Source of the DNA: a virus
Strand: one strand, 5' to 3'
Virus record (IMG/VR): IMGVR_UViG_3300049783_000686
Coordinates: 1 to 20,965 of that record
Length of the DNA: 20,965 nt
Part shown: positions 3,157 to 16,670 of the stretch, in pieces
Numbering within the stretch: the first letter of the stretch is position 1
How the letters are laid out: the number at the start of each line of letters is the position of its first letter
Program-made: the position numbers and the translations under genes
The notes under the pieces: model-generated
Database searches by the model: none
Told to the model about the DNA's origin: nothing
What the model saw: only the letters and a program-made list of their open reading frames with translations

Positions 3157-4383
3157 GTGTCCCTTGAGTTTATAGGGGCCGGATACACCAGCGCCCAGTG
3201 CGGCGGAGACGACACCGCTGCAGGCGCTCGCGTCGAAAGTGACGTACAGGTGATCGTCGTCGGCTGCGGCCACGACCTCGCGCACTGCGGCGGTGACAAG
3301 GCATACGCCAACAGCGTCGAGCTAGTCGGGGCCATATCGGGCGCTGCAGACATTACCGAGCAAGCGGACACGGTCGACGCCTCCGGGCAGATCGCCACCG
3401 TTGGCGCTGCAGACATTACCGAGCAAGCGGACACGGTCGACGCCTCCGGGCAGATCGCCACCGTTGGCGCTGCAGACATTACCGAGCAAGCGGACACGGT
3501 CGACGCCTCCGGGCAGATCGCCACCGTTGGCGCTGCAGATATCGACGAGCAAGCGGACACGGTCGACGCCTCCGGGCAGATCGCCACCGTTGGCGCTGCA
3601 GACATTACCGAGCAAGCGGACACGGTCGACGCCTCCGGGCAGATCGCCACCGTTGGCGCTGCAGACATTACCGAGCAAGCGGACACGGTCGACGCCTCCG
3701 GGCAGATCGCCACCGTTGGCGCTGCAGACATTACCGAGCAAGCGGACACGGTCGACGCCTCCGGGCAGATCGCCGCCGTTGGCGCTGCAGACATTACCGA
3801 GCAAGCGGACACGGTCGACGCTGCGGGCTCCGCACCCGTCGAGGGCGTCGTGGCGATCGTCGAACAACCCGACACAGTCGTGGGGGTGAGCCCCGGCGAC
3901 GGCCTCGACTTGGACGGTCTGGTCGTGAACTTCGACAACCGAGTGGGCGAGCTGCAGGGCACTCCCGCGGAGCTGGCGGCAGACTTCGCGACGTTTTACG
4001 CTCAATACTCGACCGGCGGGCTGGCGCCCGGCGTGGACGTAGCTGCCGGCGGCGATGTCGCGACGCTCTCCGACGCCTTTCTGTCAGACAACACGGCCGT
4101 GACTATCGACCGAATAGCCGACGGCGTGGCGACGTATTGGGCGACAGTGACGACGCCAGGCGCCCCGGCGCACGGTGGCACCGAGGTGCTGTCCGTCACA
4201 TGGACCACCGACCCCGCGGCGTTTAAGGCGGCCGTCACCGCGCAAGTGACAGACCAGCTCACCCCGCCGGGGGGCACGTTTAATTTTCACACCGCGATCG
4301 AAACCGTGCTAAAATTATCGCCAATCACTGTCCGCGAACTCGTTGCGGGCGTGCCGACGGACTTCGTGGAGTTTATAGAGTGA
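3157..4383 (+). CDS. Repeat-containing tail protein with seven 21-residue repeats
   Basis: The 408-residue protein starts at GTG. It has three parts. Residues 1-62 contain two Cys-Gly-Gly-Asp elements (TSAQCGGDD, and VGCGHDLAHCGGD). Residues 63-209 are seven tandem copies of a 21-residue unit, consensus AADITEQADTVDASGQIATV plus G, with only a variant copy 4 (DIDEQ) and copy 7 (AAVG); two degenerate copies follow. Residues 250-408 are a non-repeated acidic domain without recognised motifs. Similar 'EQADT' repeats occur in other phage tail/fibre proteins. The gene sits between the spike-side protein and the gp46-like gene and overlaps the latter by GTGA, so it belongs to the baseplate/fibre transcript. 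A role as an extended fibre-like spacer or receptor-contact protein is inference. The Cys motif recurs in the gp48-like protein. Confidence 0.72.
   Translation: MSLEFIGAGYTSAQCGGDDTAAGARVESDVQVIVVGCGHDLAHCGGDKAYANSVELVGAISGAADITEQADTVDASGQIATVGAADITEQADTVDASGQIATVGAADITEQADTVDASGQIATVGAADIDEQADTVDASGQIATVGAADITEQADTVDASGQIATVGAADITEQADTVDASGQIATVGAADITEQADTVDASGQIAAVGAADITEQADTVDAAGSAPVEGVVAIVEQPDTVVGVSPGDGLDLDGLVVNFDNRVGELQGTPAELAADFATFYAQYSTGGLAPGVDVAAGGDVATLSDAFLSDNTAVTIDRIADGVATYWATVTTPGAPAHGGTEVLSVTWTTDPAAFKAAVTAQVTDQLTPPGGTFNFHTAIETVLKLSPITVRELVAGVPTDFVEFIE
3343..3846 (+). repeat. 63-bp in-frame tandem repeat array (7 near-perfect copies plus 1 diverged)
   Basis: Units begin at 3343, 3406, 3469, 3532, 3595, 3658, 3721 and 3784, exactly 63 bp apart. 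Copies 1-7 differ only at three changes in copy 4 and one in copy 7. Copy 8 is identical for its first 39 bp or so and then diverges. The DNA-level identity exceeds what protein selection alone needs, which points to recent slippage or unequal recombination. There are no spacers, so it is not a CRISPR array. Confidence 0.95.
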
Positions 4384-10020: not shown

Positions 10021-10409
10021 AAGCCAAGCCCCATCTGGTGCGGAGGCATGTCTGCGGCGAACAGCGCACGCCGCTCGAACGGGCAGCCGGGCCACCAAGT
10101 GTTCGACTTTTGCAAGTTCTCCCGGGCGCCTATTATCTCTAGGTTCCACGGGACATGCAGGCCGCAAACGAGCGCCGAGCAGATCGGCACAATGTGGTCG
10201 ACGTGTACGTCCTCGCCGTGGGAGCGCCTGCGCTTCGCCTCACGGTACAGACGCCCGAACCGCGGGTCGTCGGCACACCAAAGCGGCCACGCCCGGTACA
10301 GCTTGCGGTAATAGCGCACAGACCGCCGGTAGTTGGGGTTCAGATCGGGGTCGTTCTCGTCTTGGCGCGCTAGCCAAAGCGGCGACCCTCTGCGCGTAGG
10401 CGTCGCCAC
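10017..10409 (-). CDS. HNH homing-type endonuclease
   Basis: The protein has 130 residues with a GTG start that shares one base with the stop of the deformylase gene (TAGTG). The HNH core is at residues 70-103: 'VDHIVPI' (Asp71, His72), 'GLHVPWNLEIIGARENLQ' with Asn89 and Asn98, and 'KSNTWW'. This is the family of small phage HNH proteins, which act as nicking or homing nucleases, or in some phages in packaging. Translational coupling to the zinc-ribbon gene is by GTGA. A 20-bp sequence near its 5' end is repeated exactly 722 bp away, at the end of the convergent membrane-protein gene, which hints at a mobile cassette. Confidence 0.85.
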   Translation of the reverse strand: MATPTRRGSPLWLARQDENDPDLNPNYRRSVRYYRKLYRAWPLWCADDPRFGRLYREAKRRRSHGEDVHVDHIVPICSALVCGLHVPWNLEIIGARENLQKSNTWWPGCPFERRALFAADMPPHQMGLGL

Positions 10410-10834
10410 TAGACGATCGTCACGCCGTTAAGATGGTCGATCTCGTGCTGAAACACGAACGCCAAAAAGTTGCGGGCGTCGATCTTTACGGGCTGCCAGT
10501 GCTCGTCGAAACCCTCGACCAGCACCCGCTTGCTGCGCTTAACGTCCACGCGCCTGCCCGGGAAGGATAGGCACCCCTCGCCGATACTCGTCACGATCTT
10601 GCCGGGCGCTTTAACTACCACCGGGTTGACCACGACCATGCACGTCGAGGCGTAATTGATCACGATCACCCGGCGCAGGTCGCCGATCTGTGGCGCGGCC
10701 AGGCCAGCACCGCCGCGCTCTTTCACCGTCTCGCGCAGATCGTCGGCAAGGTCCAGCACGTCGGCCCCCTCGGGCACGGCCGTGCAGACCGCGCGGAGGT
10801 CCGCGCTACGGGCGGGAACTAGCTGCCTTAACAT
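10409..10834 (-). CDS. def: Peptide deformylase (phage-encoded)
   Basis: The protein has 141 residues. The ATG overlaps the upstream stop by ATGTTAA. All three PDF motifs are present: GGAGLAAPQIG at 41-51, EGCLSFP at 86-92 with Cys88 as metal ligand, and QHEIDHLNGV at 129-138 with His130, Glu131 and His134. The enzyme removes the N-formyl group from nascent peptides, a metal-dependent step in the cytoplasm. It ends just after motif III and so lacks the C-terminal helix that binds ribosomes in bacterial forms; short phage PDFs of this sort are known. Residue 'LRAVC' and the N-terminal part are as expected. The bacterial gene usually sits next to fmt, whereas here it lies in a phage replication operon. 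Confidence 0.93.
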   Translation of the reverse strand: MLRQLVPARSADLRAVCTAVPEGADVLDLADDLRETVKERGGAGLAAPQIGDLRRVIVINYASTCMVVVNPVVVKAPGKIVTSIGEGCLSFPGRRVDVKRSKRVLVEGFDEHWQPVKIDARNFLAFVFQHEIDHLNGVTIV

Positions 10835-11435: not shown

Positions 11436-13859
11436 CTAGTCCTTTTGGTATCGTTTATGCCGCCAACCTGCGGCGCGAATTGGCCACCATGCCGCCCACT
11501 CGGGGCGAATGGCCATAATGCGTTCCATTTCTTCGACGGACCCGGTCCCCTCCGGGACCTCCGCCACACCTTCGTCGTGCGTGTGCATGACTAGCGGATA
11601 GCCTGCCGCCTCGACGTTTTTCAGCGCGAACGACTGGATATCTGTCGCCACCGCTTGGTTCACGTTCTCGAACAACCTGCCCCCGTAAGTCTCCATGCGG
11701 AACCAGCCGACCGGGCCTTTTACCGAGTTGGAGTTGTACCCCTCGAACGTGATCTGATACGCCGGGCCGCGGTTCAACTTATCACGCGCCGACGACAAGC
11801 GCGGGCGGTGGTACGTCAAAAACCGGCCCGACGGTAGGCGACAGTATAGAACGTCGTCCCACATGCCGTACGTGATGTCGATGTACGAGAAGCACTTGCC
11901 TGGAAACTGTATCGCTTGAATCGCGCACCCTTCCAGGCCGAACAGCTCCGGGCGATAGTCCCACTTGCCGGGGCCACACCACAAGAACTGACCGCCCCAC
12001 ATGTGCTCGATCTCGGGAGACTCCGCGCGCCATTTCAGAACGTCGGCTTTTATTTCCTCGTCTGTCATAAACGCGTCGGCGCCGAAGTTTTTCCACGCGC
12101 CAACCCAGCCGCCATAGCCGCCGGCTAACTCCCGGACCTTGCCGATCGTTGCGCGTGCCGGGTGGTGCTGGCCGTGTGCTTTCTTGTACGCCATGATCTC
12201 CTCGAACGAGATACCGGTCGCCCTGGCTGCGCTCTCCTCGTATATTTTGGCGTGGCCCGCAAATACATCGATACGCCATTGGCAACGCGCCAGGCACGCA
12301 GCCGACACGGCCTCGATCGCCGAGAAGTCGACGCAGACAAAGTCCTTGCCGTCCTCTGCCGCGAACAGGCCGCGCAAACAGCCGCACATAACCTTGATCG
12401 AGTCACCCCACACGTTTTCGACGTGGTCCAAGTCGCGGGTCAGTATCGCCTTGATCGCGGACTCGACAGCCTCGACGGTCCAGCCAGGCATGGTGTGCCA
12501 TTGCCAGCTTCCGCAGTGCGGGCACAATAGCTCGGTGGTGCGCGTCTCGGTGTTGTTCAGCACGTCTATACCTACGACTCGCCCTTGCTGCGCCGACGGG
12601 TTGAAAAACTCGCCGCACCCCTCGCACTCGGCAGACTTCGGCCCCTTCGCCGTAATGTTCTGCAACTGCACGCCGCCAGCGGACCAGCGGCCCGTGCGAT
12701 CGGCGCCGCAGTAGGTGTACTGATCGCGGAGGCGCCCGTCGCTGCTAACCTGCAGTTTAAGCGTGCGCAGCTTTTTGATGTTGGCCGCCCCCAGGGCCGC
12801 CCGAATAGAAAGAACGCGGTGCGGTAGCGGCGGCAAGTCGACGCCGATCGCCTCCTCGATCGTTTCTTTTTGCATGTTCGGCAGGTCGACGCCGTTCGCC
12901 GCCAGCCACGCTTGCATGGCGGGCAACTGGCTGGGCGCGGTCACAATGCCGCCCGTGATCGTCGCCAACTCCTGGGAGTACTTGCGCTCGGTCTGCCCGA
13001 GTATGTCCAGGCAGGCGTCCAGGGCGGCCATGTCAACGGGCACGCCGCGCAGGTTCACGATCTGGTCGAGCTGCCACGTCGCGAGCTCGTCGGGCGTTAA
13101 GTCCGGGATGTGCGCAGCCGCCTCGTCCTCGGTTTTGACGTCGATATCGCAATAGGCATAGAGCGCAGCAAAATCGTCCCAAGCTGTCGCCGGGGTCCAG
13201 CGGTAGGCCTTGCGGTTTTTCGTCGGTTTAAGCGGGCGGGTCAGTTTACGGATAAGCGACCCGCCGGCCTTGTCTTTCTGTTGCGTGCCGAGCACCGCGG
13301 CAGCTTTACCTAGGGCGCCCGGTAGACTGTGCCGGCGTGATTTAGCCATCACGCAGCGGCATTGCTCTAGGCGCAGCACCGGCCAGCCAAGACGGCGCAC
13401 GGCGATCACGTTCCAGACCCAAAACTCAAACGTTATGTTCCAGGCTTCAATCAATCCGCCGCCCGCGATATACGCCAACAGGTCCGCCGGAGAGGGCGTG
13501 CCGGGCAGCCAGGCGCGACGACCGAGGCCGTCTTTTAGATCGTAATACAGGCATAAAATCTCGGCGCTTGGGTCCGTGACATAGTTCGGCGTGCCGACTA
13601 CTGGCAGGCCGCCTTTGCTGTTGTTGCCGGTGCCTTTTACCGTGCCCGCCTCGCGGTCGATATCGTACCCCGCCTCGCTATACGTCTCGAAGTCCATCGA
13701 GGGCACCACGGACGAGTAGCGCCCCGGAGGTCCCGCGCTTATGCGGTGCCCGGCGCGCAGGTCCTCGAACGGCATGTCGACCGCGTCGTTGTCGTCGTCT
13801 TGCTCCGCCATGTTGCCGAAGAACAACCCCTCGGTCGGGTGGTAGCGGAGGTTACCCAC
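11436..13859 (-). CDS. Family-A phage DNA polymerase with 3'-5' exonuclease and a zinc insertion
   Basis: The protein has 807 residues. The GTG at 13859 is chosen because a G-rich site lies upstream; the ATG at residue 17 is an alternative. Exonuclease motifs: MDFETYS (Asp56, Glu58), 'WNITFEFWVWN' at 140-150, and 'YCDIDVKTEDE' at 236-246. Polymerase motifs: 'DRTGRWS' at 387, motif A 'VDFSAIEA' (Asp511), motif B 'RATIGKVRELAGGYGG' (569-584), motif C 'HDE' (761-763). Between 'LQNI' and the conserved 'DHVENVWGDSIKVM' segment there is a CxxC...CxxC module (Cys412, 415, 446, 449). In this phage group motif A usually reads DFSAIEAR; here the arginine is a valine (residue 518). The enzyme would copy the phage genome. 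It shares the operon with an SSB and a nuclease. Confidence 0.95.
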   Translation of the reverse strand: MGNLRYHPTEGLFFGNMAEQDDDNDAVDMPFEDLRAGHRISAGPPGRYSSVVPSMDFETYSEAGYDIDREAGTVKGTGNNSKGGLPVVGTPNYVTDPSAEILCLYYDLKDGLGRRAWLPGTPSPADLLAYIAGGGLIEAWNITFEFWVWNVIAVRRLGWPVLRLEQCRCVMAKSRRHSLPGALGKAAAVLGTQQKDKAGGSLIRKLTRPLKPTKNRKAYRWTPATAWDDFAALYAYCDIDVKTEDEAAAHIPDLTPDELATWQLDQIVNLRGVPVDMAALDACLDILGQTERKYSQELATITGGIVTAPSQLPAMQAWLAANGVDLPNMQKETIEEAIGVDLPPLPHRVLSIRAALGAANIKKLRTLKLQVSSDGRLRDQYTYCGADRTGRWSAGGVQLQNITAKGPKSAECEGCGEFFNPSAQQGRVVGIDVLNNTETRTTELLCPHCGSWQWHTMPGWTVEAVESAIKAILTRDLDHVENVWGDSIKVMCGCLRGLFAAEDGKDFVCVDFSAIEAVSAACLARCQWRIDVFAGHAKIYEESAARATGISFEEIMAYKKAHGQHHPARATIGKVRELAGGYGGWVGAWKNFGADAFMTDEEIKADVLKWRAESPEIEHMWGGQFLWCGPGKWDYRPELFGLEGCAIQAIQFPGKCFSYIDITYGMWDDVLYCRLPSGRFLTYHRPRLSSARDKLNRGPAYQITFEGYNSNSVKGPVGWFRMETYGGRLFENVNQAVATDIQSFALKNVEAAGYPLVMHTHDEGVAEVPEGTGSVEEMERIMAIRPEWAAWWPIRAAGWRHKRYQKD

Positions 13860-14109: not shown

Positions 14110-14311
14110 GTCGTTCGCCCTTATCTTTAATGTGCGCGCGGAGGTTCAGCAATGCGCCCACGGGCCACGCTAAACAGATAAGCACGACAACGACCAAGGA
14201 CTGCCAGTCGTGGCGCGCGTTGCGCACTAGCGTCCGCTCGCGTTCGGCCAAAAGGAAATACGCCTGCACGCTGCCGAGCCAAAGCAACGCCCCGATTAAA
14301 TAAAGTAACAT
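14096..14311 (-). CDS. Small two-TM membrane protein
   Basis: The protein has 71 residues and starts at ATG, overlapping the upstream gene by 16 bp. Two hydrophobic segments are clear: 'LLYLIGALLWLGSVQAYFLL' at residues 2-21, and 'SLVVVVLICLAWPVGALLNL' at about 38-57. A basic loop 'AERERTLVRNARHDWQ' lies between them. By the positive-inside rule the loop is cytoplasmic. No known family. Small membrane proteins of this type in phage early operons can affect host membrane processes, but nothing here shows which. Confidence 0.6.
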   Translation of the reverse strand: MLLYLIGALLWLGSVQAYFLLAERERTLVRNARHDWQSLVVVVLICLAWPVGALLNLRAHIKDKGERHVFL

Positions 14312-14508
14312 GCTCTAAGCTCCTGCCAAAGTTGAAAGGCGCGCGCCTCGATGGACTCGATCGCCTCGTTAATCTCTCCGGTCGCGGTCTCTAGCTCGCC
14401 GCACCCACCACTACATCGCAACGTCGTCGCGTACTTGGTGCCGCCCTCGACGGGGTATGTCGATCGCTGCGGTTTTTTGCCGCAGCATCGGTTCGGAATA
14501 TTAGCCAT
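14296..14508 (-). CDS. Small zinc-ribbon protein, Lar-like layout
   Basis: The protein has 70 residues, starting at ATG with GAGGGAG upstream. It holds an early Cys pair (RCCGKKP, Cys8 and Cys9), a second set 'LRCSGGCGE' with Cys32 and Cys36, and a helix 'EAIESIEARAFQLWQEL'. The order Cys pair, spacer, CxxxCG, then acidic helix with a late Trp resembles small phage proteins of the restriction-alleviation (Lar) type, though the first pair is CC rather than CxxC. The resemblance is by layout only. It is the first gene after the long hairpin. Confidence 0.55.
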   Translation of the reverse strand: MANIPNRCCGKKPQRSTYPVEGGTKYATTLRCSGGCGELETATGEINEAIESIEARAFQLWQELRACYFI

Positions 14509-14542
14509 AAAGGCTCCCTCGTTCTTGTTGTTTTGGCGCGCT

Positions 14543-14647
14543 GGGCGGGCCCTTTAGGAGCACGGCACGAGGCCGCGCGCGGAGGCTTGCGGTAGCTCGG
14601 GGGAGGCCGAACCGGTACAACGTGCCGTGCTCCTAAAAAGCCCACCC
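14543..14647 (-). ncRNA. Long hairpin: 27-bp stem with a 51-nt loop, candidate structured RNA
   Basis: The arms 14543-14569 and 14621-14647 are inverted copies. The inner 17 bp (14553-14569 against 14621-14637) are perfect. The outer 10 bp differ at three places, and all three become G-U wobbles only if the - strand is transcribed, the direction of the flanking genes. The stem therefore closes without any mismatch in the - strand RNA. The loop contains the 10-bp palindrome CCGCGCGCGG at 14573-14582. No U-run follows, so it is not a standard terminator. It lies between the SSB gene and the Lar-like gene, in the only sizeable gap (about 160 bp) of the operon. A role in RNA stability, processing or replication is inference. 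Confidence 0.6.
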
Positions 14648-14669
14648 GGGGCGCCGTGAAAGCCCGCGA
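14648..14669 (-). other. Short spacer after the SSB stop with a weak terminator-like element
   Basis: On the - strand this short stretch leads into a small GCCC-loop-GGGC hairpin followed by TTTTT (about 14636-14653). That would be a weak intrinsic terminator, and it uses the same bases as the outer arm of the long hairpin. The two structures cannot form together. This is a reading of the sequence only; stem strength is low. Confidence 0.3.
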
Positions 14670-15494
14670 CTATTGCGGGATGAAGTTGTGCGCCTGGGCG
14701 ACAGGCTGCGCACCCACTACAGGCAGCGCCGCGATCGCTTCGGGCGGGTAGCCTGCGGCGGTCAGTTGCGCCGCGGTGTACTGGCCGTCGGGGGCTTGGT
14801 ACATCGGCTCGGGCGCGGCCTGTTGCTGCGCCGGTGCTTGGTACGGTGGTGCTGCGGCCTGTTGCTGCGCCGGTGCTTGGTACGGTGGTGCTGCGGCCTG
14901 TTGCTGCGCTGGCGCTTGGTAAGCTTGTTGCTGCGCCGGTGCTTGGTACGGTGGTGCGCCGCCGCCTCCGCCAAACGCTGCGGCAGTGTTGCCGCCGCCG
15001 GTGCTGTAGTTCGTGCGCACTGCGTTGGCCGCGACGATAGGTTCTAGCGCGTCAAGTCCTGCGCCAATGCCTTTCTGCTTGTTGTTGTACTCATAGCAGC
15101 TAGTCAACACGTCGACCATCTGGCCGTTAAACAGCGCGGGGCCGTAGATCATAGGCTCCAACAACTGGCCGTTAGCGTCGTACACGTCGGGGCAGAACTT
15201 AGACTTGAAGCTGATTTTAGACCAGCCCACATAGTTGCCGTCGAATTTGTTGTCGGCGCCCACGATCGTGATCGGCATGTTGCCGCCTGCGGGCAGTACG
15301 CCGCGGAACTGGGAGTGAACCAGTTCTAGGTTCGCCAAAGCCTCCAACAGTGGCAAGTCTGGGCAAGTCGGGGGGAACACGACGCCCAGCTCGTACGATA
15401 TGTTGCCGCCTGCGTTAGTGCCTGGCGTTGTGACGCCTTCCCATACGACTGTTCCGCCGCATACTTTTACTCGTCTCTCGTCAATTTGTGGCAT
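14670..15494 (-). CDS. Single-stranded DNA-binding protein, DUF2815-like, with Pro/Gln repeat tail
   Basis: The protein has 274 residues. The ATG lies 3 nt after the nuclease stop, with GGAAG upstream. Residues 1-165 match the DUF2815/T7 gp2.5-like pattern: 'GGTVVWEGVTTPG', 'NYVGWSKISFKSKFCPDVYD', and the late 'GPALFNGQMVDVLTSCYEY' plus 'KGIGAGLDALEPI'. These proteins coat single-stranded DNA and support replication and annealing. From residue 165 on it is a low-complexity tail: a Gly run, then repeats of PPYQAPAQQQAAA (181-235), then a final 'AAQLTAAGYPPEAIAALP' and an end in 'NFIPQ'. The usual acidic tip of SSBs is absent. It is the partner of the nuclease upstream in many phages. Confidence 0.8.
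   Translation of the reverse strand: MPQIDERRVKVCGGTVVWEGVTTPGTNAGGNISYELGVVFPPTCPDLPLLEALANLELVHSQFRGVLPAGGNMPITIVGADNKFDGNYVGWSKISFKSKFCPDVYDANGQLLEPMIYGPALFNGQMVDVLTSCYEYNNKQKGIGAGLDALEPIVAANAVRTNYSTGGGNTAAAFGGGGGAPPYQAPAQQQAYQAPAQQQAAAPPYQAPAQQQAAAPPYQAPAQQQAAPEPMYQAPDGQYTAAQLTAAGYPPEAIAALPVVGAQPVAQAHNFIPQ
14790..14954 (-). repeat. 39-bp in-frame repeats coding the Pro/Gln tail of the SSB
   Basis: Units recur at 39-bp spacing (for example from 14821 and 14860), encoding PPYQAPAQQQAAA; one copy is shortened to about 27 bp. The units are nearly identical at DNA level, so copy number is likely variable between relatives. Confidence 0.85.
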
Positions 15495-15497
15495 ATT

Positions 15498-16670
15498 CTA
15501 TACTTCCTTTTTTGCAAATGCGCGAGCGGCGATAGTGTCGCCCGCTTGGGTTAATGTCAGACCGCCAGGTGGGCGTTTCGTGACAGACTTTAAAACCAAA
15601 TCCATTGCCGGCCGTAGCGCGGTGGGTGTGGCGTTTTTCGTTTGCGTCGGGGTCAATGCTGCGACCGCCTTCGCGTTGTTTACTCCGAATTGAGCGGCGA
15701 TAGCGATCGCCTTGGCGTCGTCTACCGTCCAGGCTAAGTTGCCAAGCTTAGACTCTAGCGCGAGACCGGTGTCCCGTGCGCCTTCGCGGATTCGGTGCGT
15801 TAGCTCCTCGTCGATCGCGGTGGCTAAAGACTTACCGACCGCCTGGCCGTCGCGTACTTGGTTGCGAAATAGCGCCAAGCTTGCGCCGTCCATCGTGGAC
15901 AAGTCCGTCGGGGTGTCGACCAAGTCTATAAAATTATAGTGTGCCTGGCGCCCCGCTTCGCAGTCGAGCAACGCCGTACAGTCGCGGCAGTGCTTGCCGG
16001 TCGTGTACGTCGGGTTCGGGCCCGTGGCCTCGTCGGCCTTGGCTTTCAACCGGTTGAAATACCCGCGCAACTCGTGCAACGGCAGGCGCCACTCCTTAAC
16101 GGGGCCAAACGCGCTGTAGTTGAACGGCTGCACGCAGCGGATGACCACCTCAATGTACTGGTCTGCTACGCCGTCAATCTCGTATTTTTCGATAAGACCC
16201 TCGACGTAGTCAACAAACTGCAGGTTCCCCACAACATCGACGCCGCGGCGCCCGTGCTTATAGTCCCACAAGTACAGCTTGGCGCCTTTCTTGTCGAACA
16301 GGGCCGCGTCGAGCGTGCCCGCGTTGCCCGGGTGAATGTTCGACATCGTGACGGCGTGCTCGACCAACAACGAGCGCAGGCCGCCCGTGTCGTTGCACAC
16401 TTTCAGGACGTTATCGACGTGGACTTGGGCGCCGTCGCACATTTCCTCGTCGATCACCGTGCCGTCGGGGTCTACCTTGTATAACCAGTCGCGGCAGATA
16501 GGCGCACCGCCGTCGGGGTCGACCCACGCAAGGAGGCACTCGGCCCCGACCCAGTGAGCCCCGGACCCCTCGATCGTGCGGCGGTTCGGCAGGTCCGGCC
16601 GTCCGTCGGTGGCGATTAAAGACGCGGCGCAGTTGCCCCACAAGGGGGCGCCACTAGGGCGCAGCCTCAT
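15498..16670 (-). CDS. PD-(D/E)XK nuclease of the DUF2800 type, with Fe-S-type cysteines
   Basis: The protein has 390 residues and starts at an ATGA overlap. The N-terminus 'RPSGAPLWGNCAASL' and 'GSGAHWVGAECLLAW' are typical of DUF2800 (RecB/Cas4-like) phage nucleases. The catalytic core is 'GTLDAALFDKKGAKLYLWDY' continuing into K138: Asp121, Asp136, Lys138. Cys14 together with Cys228, Cys231 and Cys237 ('CRDCTALLDC') matches the one-plus-three cysteine arrangement of an iron-sulphur cluster in AddB/Cas4-type nucleases. It likely acts as an exonuclease that prepares single strands for the SSB encoded just downstream. C-terminal part (residues 260-390) is helical and unassigned. Confidence 0.88.
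   Translation of the reverse strand: MRLRPSGAPLWGNCAASLIATDGRPDLPNRRTIEGSGAHWVGAECLLAWVDPDGGAPICRDWLYKVDPDGTVIDEEMCDGAQVHVDNVLKVCNDTGGLRSLLVEHAVTMSNIHPGNAGTLDAALFDKKGAKLYLWDYKHGRRGVDVVGNLQFVDYVEGLIEKYEIDGVADQYIEVVIRCVQPFNYSAFGPVKEWRLPLHELRGYFNRLKAKADEATGPNPTYTTGKHCRDCTALLDCEAGRQAHYNFIDLVDTPTDLSTMDGASLALFRNQVRDGQAVGKSLATAIDEELTHRIREGARDTGLALESKLGNLAWTVDDAKAIAIAAQFGVNNAKAVAALTPTQTKNATPTALRPAMDLVLKSVTKRPPGGLTLTQAGDTIAARAFAKKEV

Follow-up and report, generated by a model that had tools for sequence, protein, structure and literature searches.

Intergenic hairpins and the window

Hairpins of the REP/BIME type are decay-blocking elements, and intrinsic (Rho-independent) terminators combine a GC stem with a short loop and an immediate U-run. 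Targets of RNase III contain a duplex of at least about 22 nucleotides (nt), with sites known in the RNAs of phages lambda, T7, and T3 (PMC5371410). Here, we describe a long hairpin from an uncultured phage, the virus record IMGVR_UViG_3300049783_000686, of which the whole stretch of 20,965 bases was analysed and is called the window below.

The hairpin shares with intrinsic terminators its slot after the stop codon of a gene for a single-stranded DNA-binding protein (SSB), where a probable relic of a GC stem with a U5 run remains. It differs from them in its 51-nt loop and in that no U-run lies 3' of the long stem on either minus- or plus-strand RNA (AAAACAAC follows on the minus-strand RNA), in line with the preliminary description, which had judged it not to be a standard terminator. 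With REP/BIME-type hairpins it has in common a long, stable intergenic stem, here after a gene that is likely highly expressed, whereas those hairpins form a repeat family and this stem is single copy: multiple copies as in MITE or REP elements were not seen in the phage and plasmid collections, viral contigs, and genomes searched. With 27 mismatch-free pairs as minus-strand RNA, the stem exceeds the duplex length of RNase III targets. As a candidate site, it resembles the intercistronic RNase III sites of T7, T3, and lambda (PMC5371410) in that a polycistronic phage transcript would carry, between two of its genes, a double-stranded stretch longer than 22 bp, and it differs from them in its large loop and its unrelated sequence.

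Gene context

All genes of the locus are on the minus strand, where a DUF2800-type exonuclease gene (15498-16670) is followed by the SSB gene (14670-15494), by three small open reading frames (ORFs), and by the gene for a family A DNA polymerase (11436-13859), an order that is kept across relatives. The SSB is an Enc34/gp2.5-like protein with Q/A/P-rich repeats, identified by a match to PHROG 112 (E = 1e-7), by tblastn matches to phage SSBs, and by a weak, below-cut-off match to Pfam PF10991. As had been described, the hairpin occupies a sizeable gap of the minus-strand operon, which we place after the SSB gene: the gap spans 161 nt between that gene, upstream of the stem, and the first small ORF (14296-14508; 70 amino acids [aa]), downstream of it, and the stem begins 14 nt past the SSB stop codon. 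Homologue searches with the 70-aa ORF, including Pfam and PHROG, gave none. Its Shine-Dalgarno-like site, GAGGGAG (14514-14520), was read directly and lies outside the stem.

Other features of the window include 39-nt repeats (14815-14958) in the SSB gene, which encode its YQAPAQQQ-rich tail. The SSB tails of relatives are Q/G/P-rich and of very different lengths, and in Vibrio phage 1.009.O such repeats carry the annotation "CRISPR spacers." We also observe a phage-borne peptide deformylase gene (10409-10834; Pfam PF01327, E = 2.6e-35) and, within an ORF of the tail region, a 63-nt tandem repeat (3214-3947) that encodes about eight copies of a 21-aa ADITEQADTVDASGQIATVGA unit.

Stem geometry and folding

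On the minus-strand RNA, the inverted repeat consists of two 35-nt arms, the 5' arm at 14621-14655 and the 3' arm at 14535-14569, which are 86% complementary and enclose the loop at 14570-14620, within which two small hairpins are predicted. A leader ORF in the loop (TTG after AGGAG) was considered, with nothing found in its support. The inner 17 pairs are exclusively Watson-Crick (14553-14569 with 14621-14637), and mismatch-free pairing extends to 27 bp, three of them G-U (14543-14569 with 14621-14647), so that the coordinates, exact arms, pair count, and loop length of the preliminary description are all reproduced. Two mismatches lie beyond these 27 bp, and the full set of 35 positions comprises 23 G-C, 7 A-U, and 3 G-U pairs, one C-C, and one C-A. 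All five differences between the arms thus fall in the outer 18 positions, the inner 17 being perfect; since the arms differ at five positions, an assembly chimera was rejected as the origin of the hairpin.

The long hairpin is real and beyond chance. When the window was simulated 60 times under a first-order Markov model, the longest Watson-Crick stem with a loop of up to 100 nt measured 9 to 15 bp and the longest one-strand stem with G-U allowed 13 to 19 bp, compared with the 17 and 27 bp found here; the earlier judgment that such a stem is unlikely by chance therefore holds. No second stem of this kind occurs anywhere in the window. Folding of the gap yields -91.6 kcal/mol (z = -5.3) as minus-strand RNA and -89.6 kcal/mol (z = -3.05) as plus-strand RNA, and the inner 27 bp are the more stable as minus-strand RNA, at -56.1 versus -47.6 kcal/mol.

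A transition between two arms produces a G-U pair on one strand and an A-C mismatch on the other, and the G-U pairs of the minus-strand RNA had been taken as a bias that reveals selection for that RNA. The four transitions between the 35-nt arms split into 3 G-U and 1 C-A on the minus-strand RNA (two-sided binomial P of about 0.6, our own arithmetic), the earlier count over 27 bp having ended just short of the C-A mismatch. Because the whole repeat includes that C-A, the ratio is 3:1 rather than 3:0, and the wobble pattern gives no evidence for strand-specific selection.

Comparison with related phages

Searches with the polymerase and the SSB gathered about 35 relatives with both genes, among them IMG/VR contigs and named phages of Aeromonas, Pseudoalteromonas, Oceanospirillum, Vibrio, Shewanella, and Alteromonas. 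The long stem between the SSB and polymerase genes is present in none of them, and the arms, whose lack in related phages the preliminary description had named as evidence against its proposal, are absent even in the nearest relative (L027/L028; polymerase 71% identical). A blastn search of the gap against phage and plasmid collections gave no match, no viral contig searched held a copy of both arms together, and no second copy of an arm was found elsewhere in the window. Arm homologues with compensatory pairing, as in a conserved structured RNA family, were likewise not found in phages, plasmids, or viral contigs. An arm 15-mer produced 12 matches in IMG/VR, 7 of which are one segment common to related contigs, the rest being unrelated. 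Rfam contained no match at gathering score; a weak match to MIR918 (E = 0.014), about 240 bits under its cut-off, was dismissed as a generic long-stem match.

Among the sequences inspected, an unrelated viral contig has, in what looks like an intergenic region (L005:9823-9964), an inverted repeat of 23 perfectly matching bp around a 96-nt spacer. Another sequence has its polymerase gene as two same-frame ORFs about 600 nt apart, perhaps separated by an intron (L145:4278-4883), and the polymerases of L021 and L023 (1100 and 1164 aa) were matched in two pieces, with no intein match in Pfam.

We read the 60 to 90 nt past the SSB stop in 33 sequences and observe a recurrent short GC-rich hairpin, e.g., GGCCGCC-NNNNN-GGCGGCC, often with a U-run after it. 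By a simple stem score, 24 of 32 relatives have a hairpin scoring at least 18 in the first 60 nt past the SSB stop, versus 2 of 27 past the polymerase stop, and the mean score past the SSB stop is 19.6 versus 13.2 for shuffles; some rows are near-duplicates, which makes these counts partly dependent on one another. A T-run is found in 16 relatives at +27 to +48, directly after the hairpin or a few bases from it. Because it starts 5 to 35 nt beyond the SSB stop codon, the short hairpin looks like an intrinsic or partial terminator that would end the exonuclease-SSB part of the operon. Terminator-like short hairpins kept in position, 5 to 50 nt past the SSB stop, were noted in relatives L016 to L050 and L131. 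The comparison with related phages thus divides: a short hairpin at the same position is shared, the long arms are not, and with the long stem missing from every relative, conservation supports the slot and not the enlarged structure.

In the window, the same slot holds a weak stem-loop, GCCC-CGGGT-GGGC (14640-14652, minus strand; 4 bp, -5.4 kcal/mol), directly followed by TTTTT (14635-14639; +31 to +35 after the SSB stop), the U5 run that is now paired inside the long stem and whose position matches that of the T-runs of relatives. An automatic terminator scan of the window did not call this 4-bp stem with its U5. In the multiple alignment, the window's GGTGGGCTTTTTA falls on GGCGGGCCTTTTTA / GGGCGGCCTTTTTA of relatives, and from position and sequence the 4-bp stem and U5 are probably a relic of an ancestral post-SSB terminator. 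The long stem's 5' arm includes the 3' half of the relic and its U-run, where the alignment with relatives places the 3' half and U-run of the presumed ancestral terminator. The 3' arm is without counterpart in relatives; the 5' arm looks ancestral, and the 3' arm looks like a later inverted copy.

Possible origin and role

The element looks like an enlarged, one-off form of an intercistronic stem-loop that this group of phages retains downstream of the SSB gene. We tentatively favor, at somewhat short of even confidence, the reading in which the terminator-slot hairpin was turned into a long stem with a part in the punctuation or processing of the minus-strand operon mRNA, perhaps via RNase III. 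Transcription of the exonuclease, SSB, small ORFs, and polymerase A would read through the weakened terminator, after which the long stem would fold in the polycistronic mRNA and mark the SSB boundary. There it could block 3'-5' decay of the exonuclease-SSB part, serve as an RNase III cleavage site, or both, while the ribosome-binding site of the next gene, outside the stem, would stay open; SSB and polymerase would then be produced in different amounts. The bolder form, in which an inverted duplication captured the terminator's own 3' half and U-run and so gave the operon a new switch, dependent on RNase III, between the output of SSB and that of DNA polymerase, seems improbable to us. Of the RNA element proposed earlier, the nonchance stem and a plausible part in punctuation, stability, or RNase III processing stand, and the wobble-based selection does not. 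If true, it would show how a phage can make a simple terminator into a long stem for processing or stability amid its replication genes. The post-SSB hairpin kept in the group suggests a deliberate uncoupling of SSB and polymerase levels.

The main rival, less likely in our view yet to be taken seriously, holds that template switching in replication left an inverted duplication of the terminator/U-run segment, which would be neutral, without a separate function, and in slow decay. Such an event would suit a stem unique to this phage, with an ancestral-looking 5' arm and a 3' arm lacking a counterpart in relatives, and the five differences among 35 positions, with the four transitions at 3:1 across strands, are as expected without selection. 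It accounts less readily for an inner 17 bp that is perfect while the outer 18 positions hold every difference, and for the persistence of such DNA in phages, whose intergenic stretches are usually kept short. A DNA-level element read by a protein, be it a replication origin or primosome hairpin, a cruciform, or paired operator sites, would agree with the nearly equal folding of the two strands and the location among replication genes; we consider it doubtful, since there is no GC-skew switch at the site at 1-kb resolution, the arm has no second copy in the window, and relatives keep the same replication genes without the long stem.

Both the weak terminator (GCCC/GGGC with U5) and the long stem use the same nucleotides, as they would in an attenuator whose mutually exclusive folds set read-through from SSB to polymerase. 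That arrangement is likewise a poor candidate: transcription reaches the 3' arm about 80 nt beyond the U-run, when termination could no longer be prevented unless the polymerase pauses, the stem of the relic is weak, and there is no leader ORF or ligand candidate. Least probable, and very unlikely, is a miniature transposable element or host REP-like repeat, despite inverted-repeat ends that flank a short core, as no further copy was found in the record or in phage and plasmid collections, no viral contig has both arms, and no target-site duplication was seen. Matches in 398 genomes from the phylum of an Acetobacteraceae MAG, which may not be that of the host, were short, scattered, and near chance.

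A hairpin in L103 and its neighboring motif

One phage, L103 (polymerase 44% identical), has a 19-bp hairpin with a 55-nt loop in its SSB-polymerase gap and has GGAGCAC/GTGCTCC in common with the window. It was rejected as a homologue of the window stem; since it adjoins another conserved RNA motif, one that the window lacks, we put the 7-nt match down to chance or Shine-Dalgarno likeness. The motif, GGTGAATGCGCAGGCTGATGCGC ... GCCGGAGATCAGC(G/A)CCGG(C/T)CACC, resembles a noncoding RNA and matched neither Rfam nor the literature searched. In many phages it is conserved, either close to tRNA genes or in the spaces between genes (L103:5771-5940, L146:1505-1610, L147:1509-1640, L148:805-930, and L149:804-900), and about 150 phage records, from phages of Klebsiella, E. 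coli, Pseudomonas, and others, match the motif part of the L103 query. Its outer stem covaries (AGGGTG/CACCCT, GTGGTG/CACCAC, and GAGTGA/TCACTC), and its GCTGAT could pair with ATCAGC.
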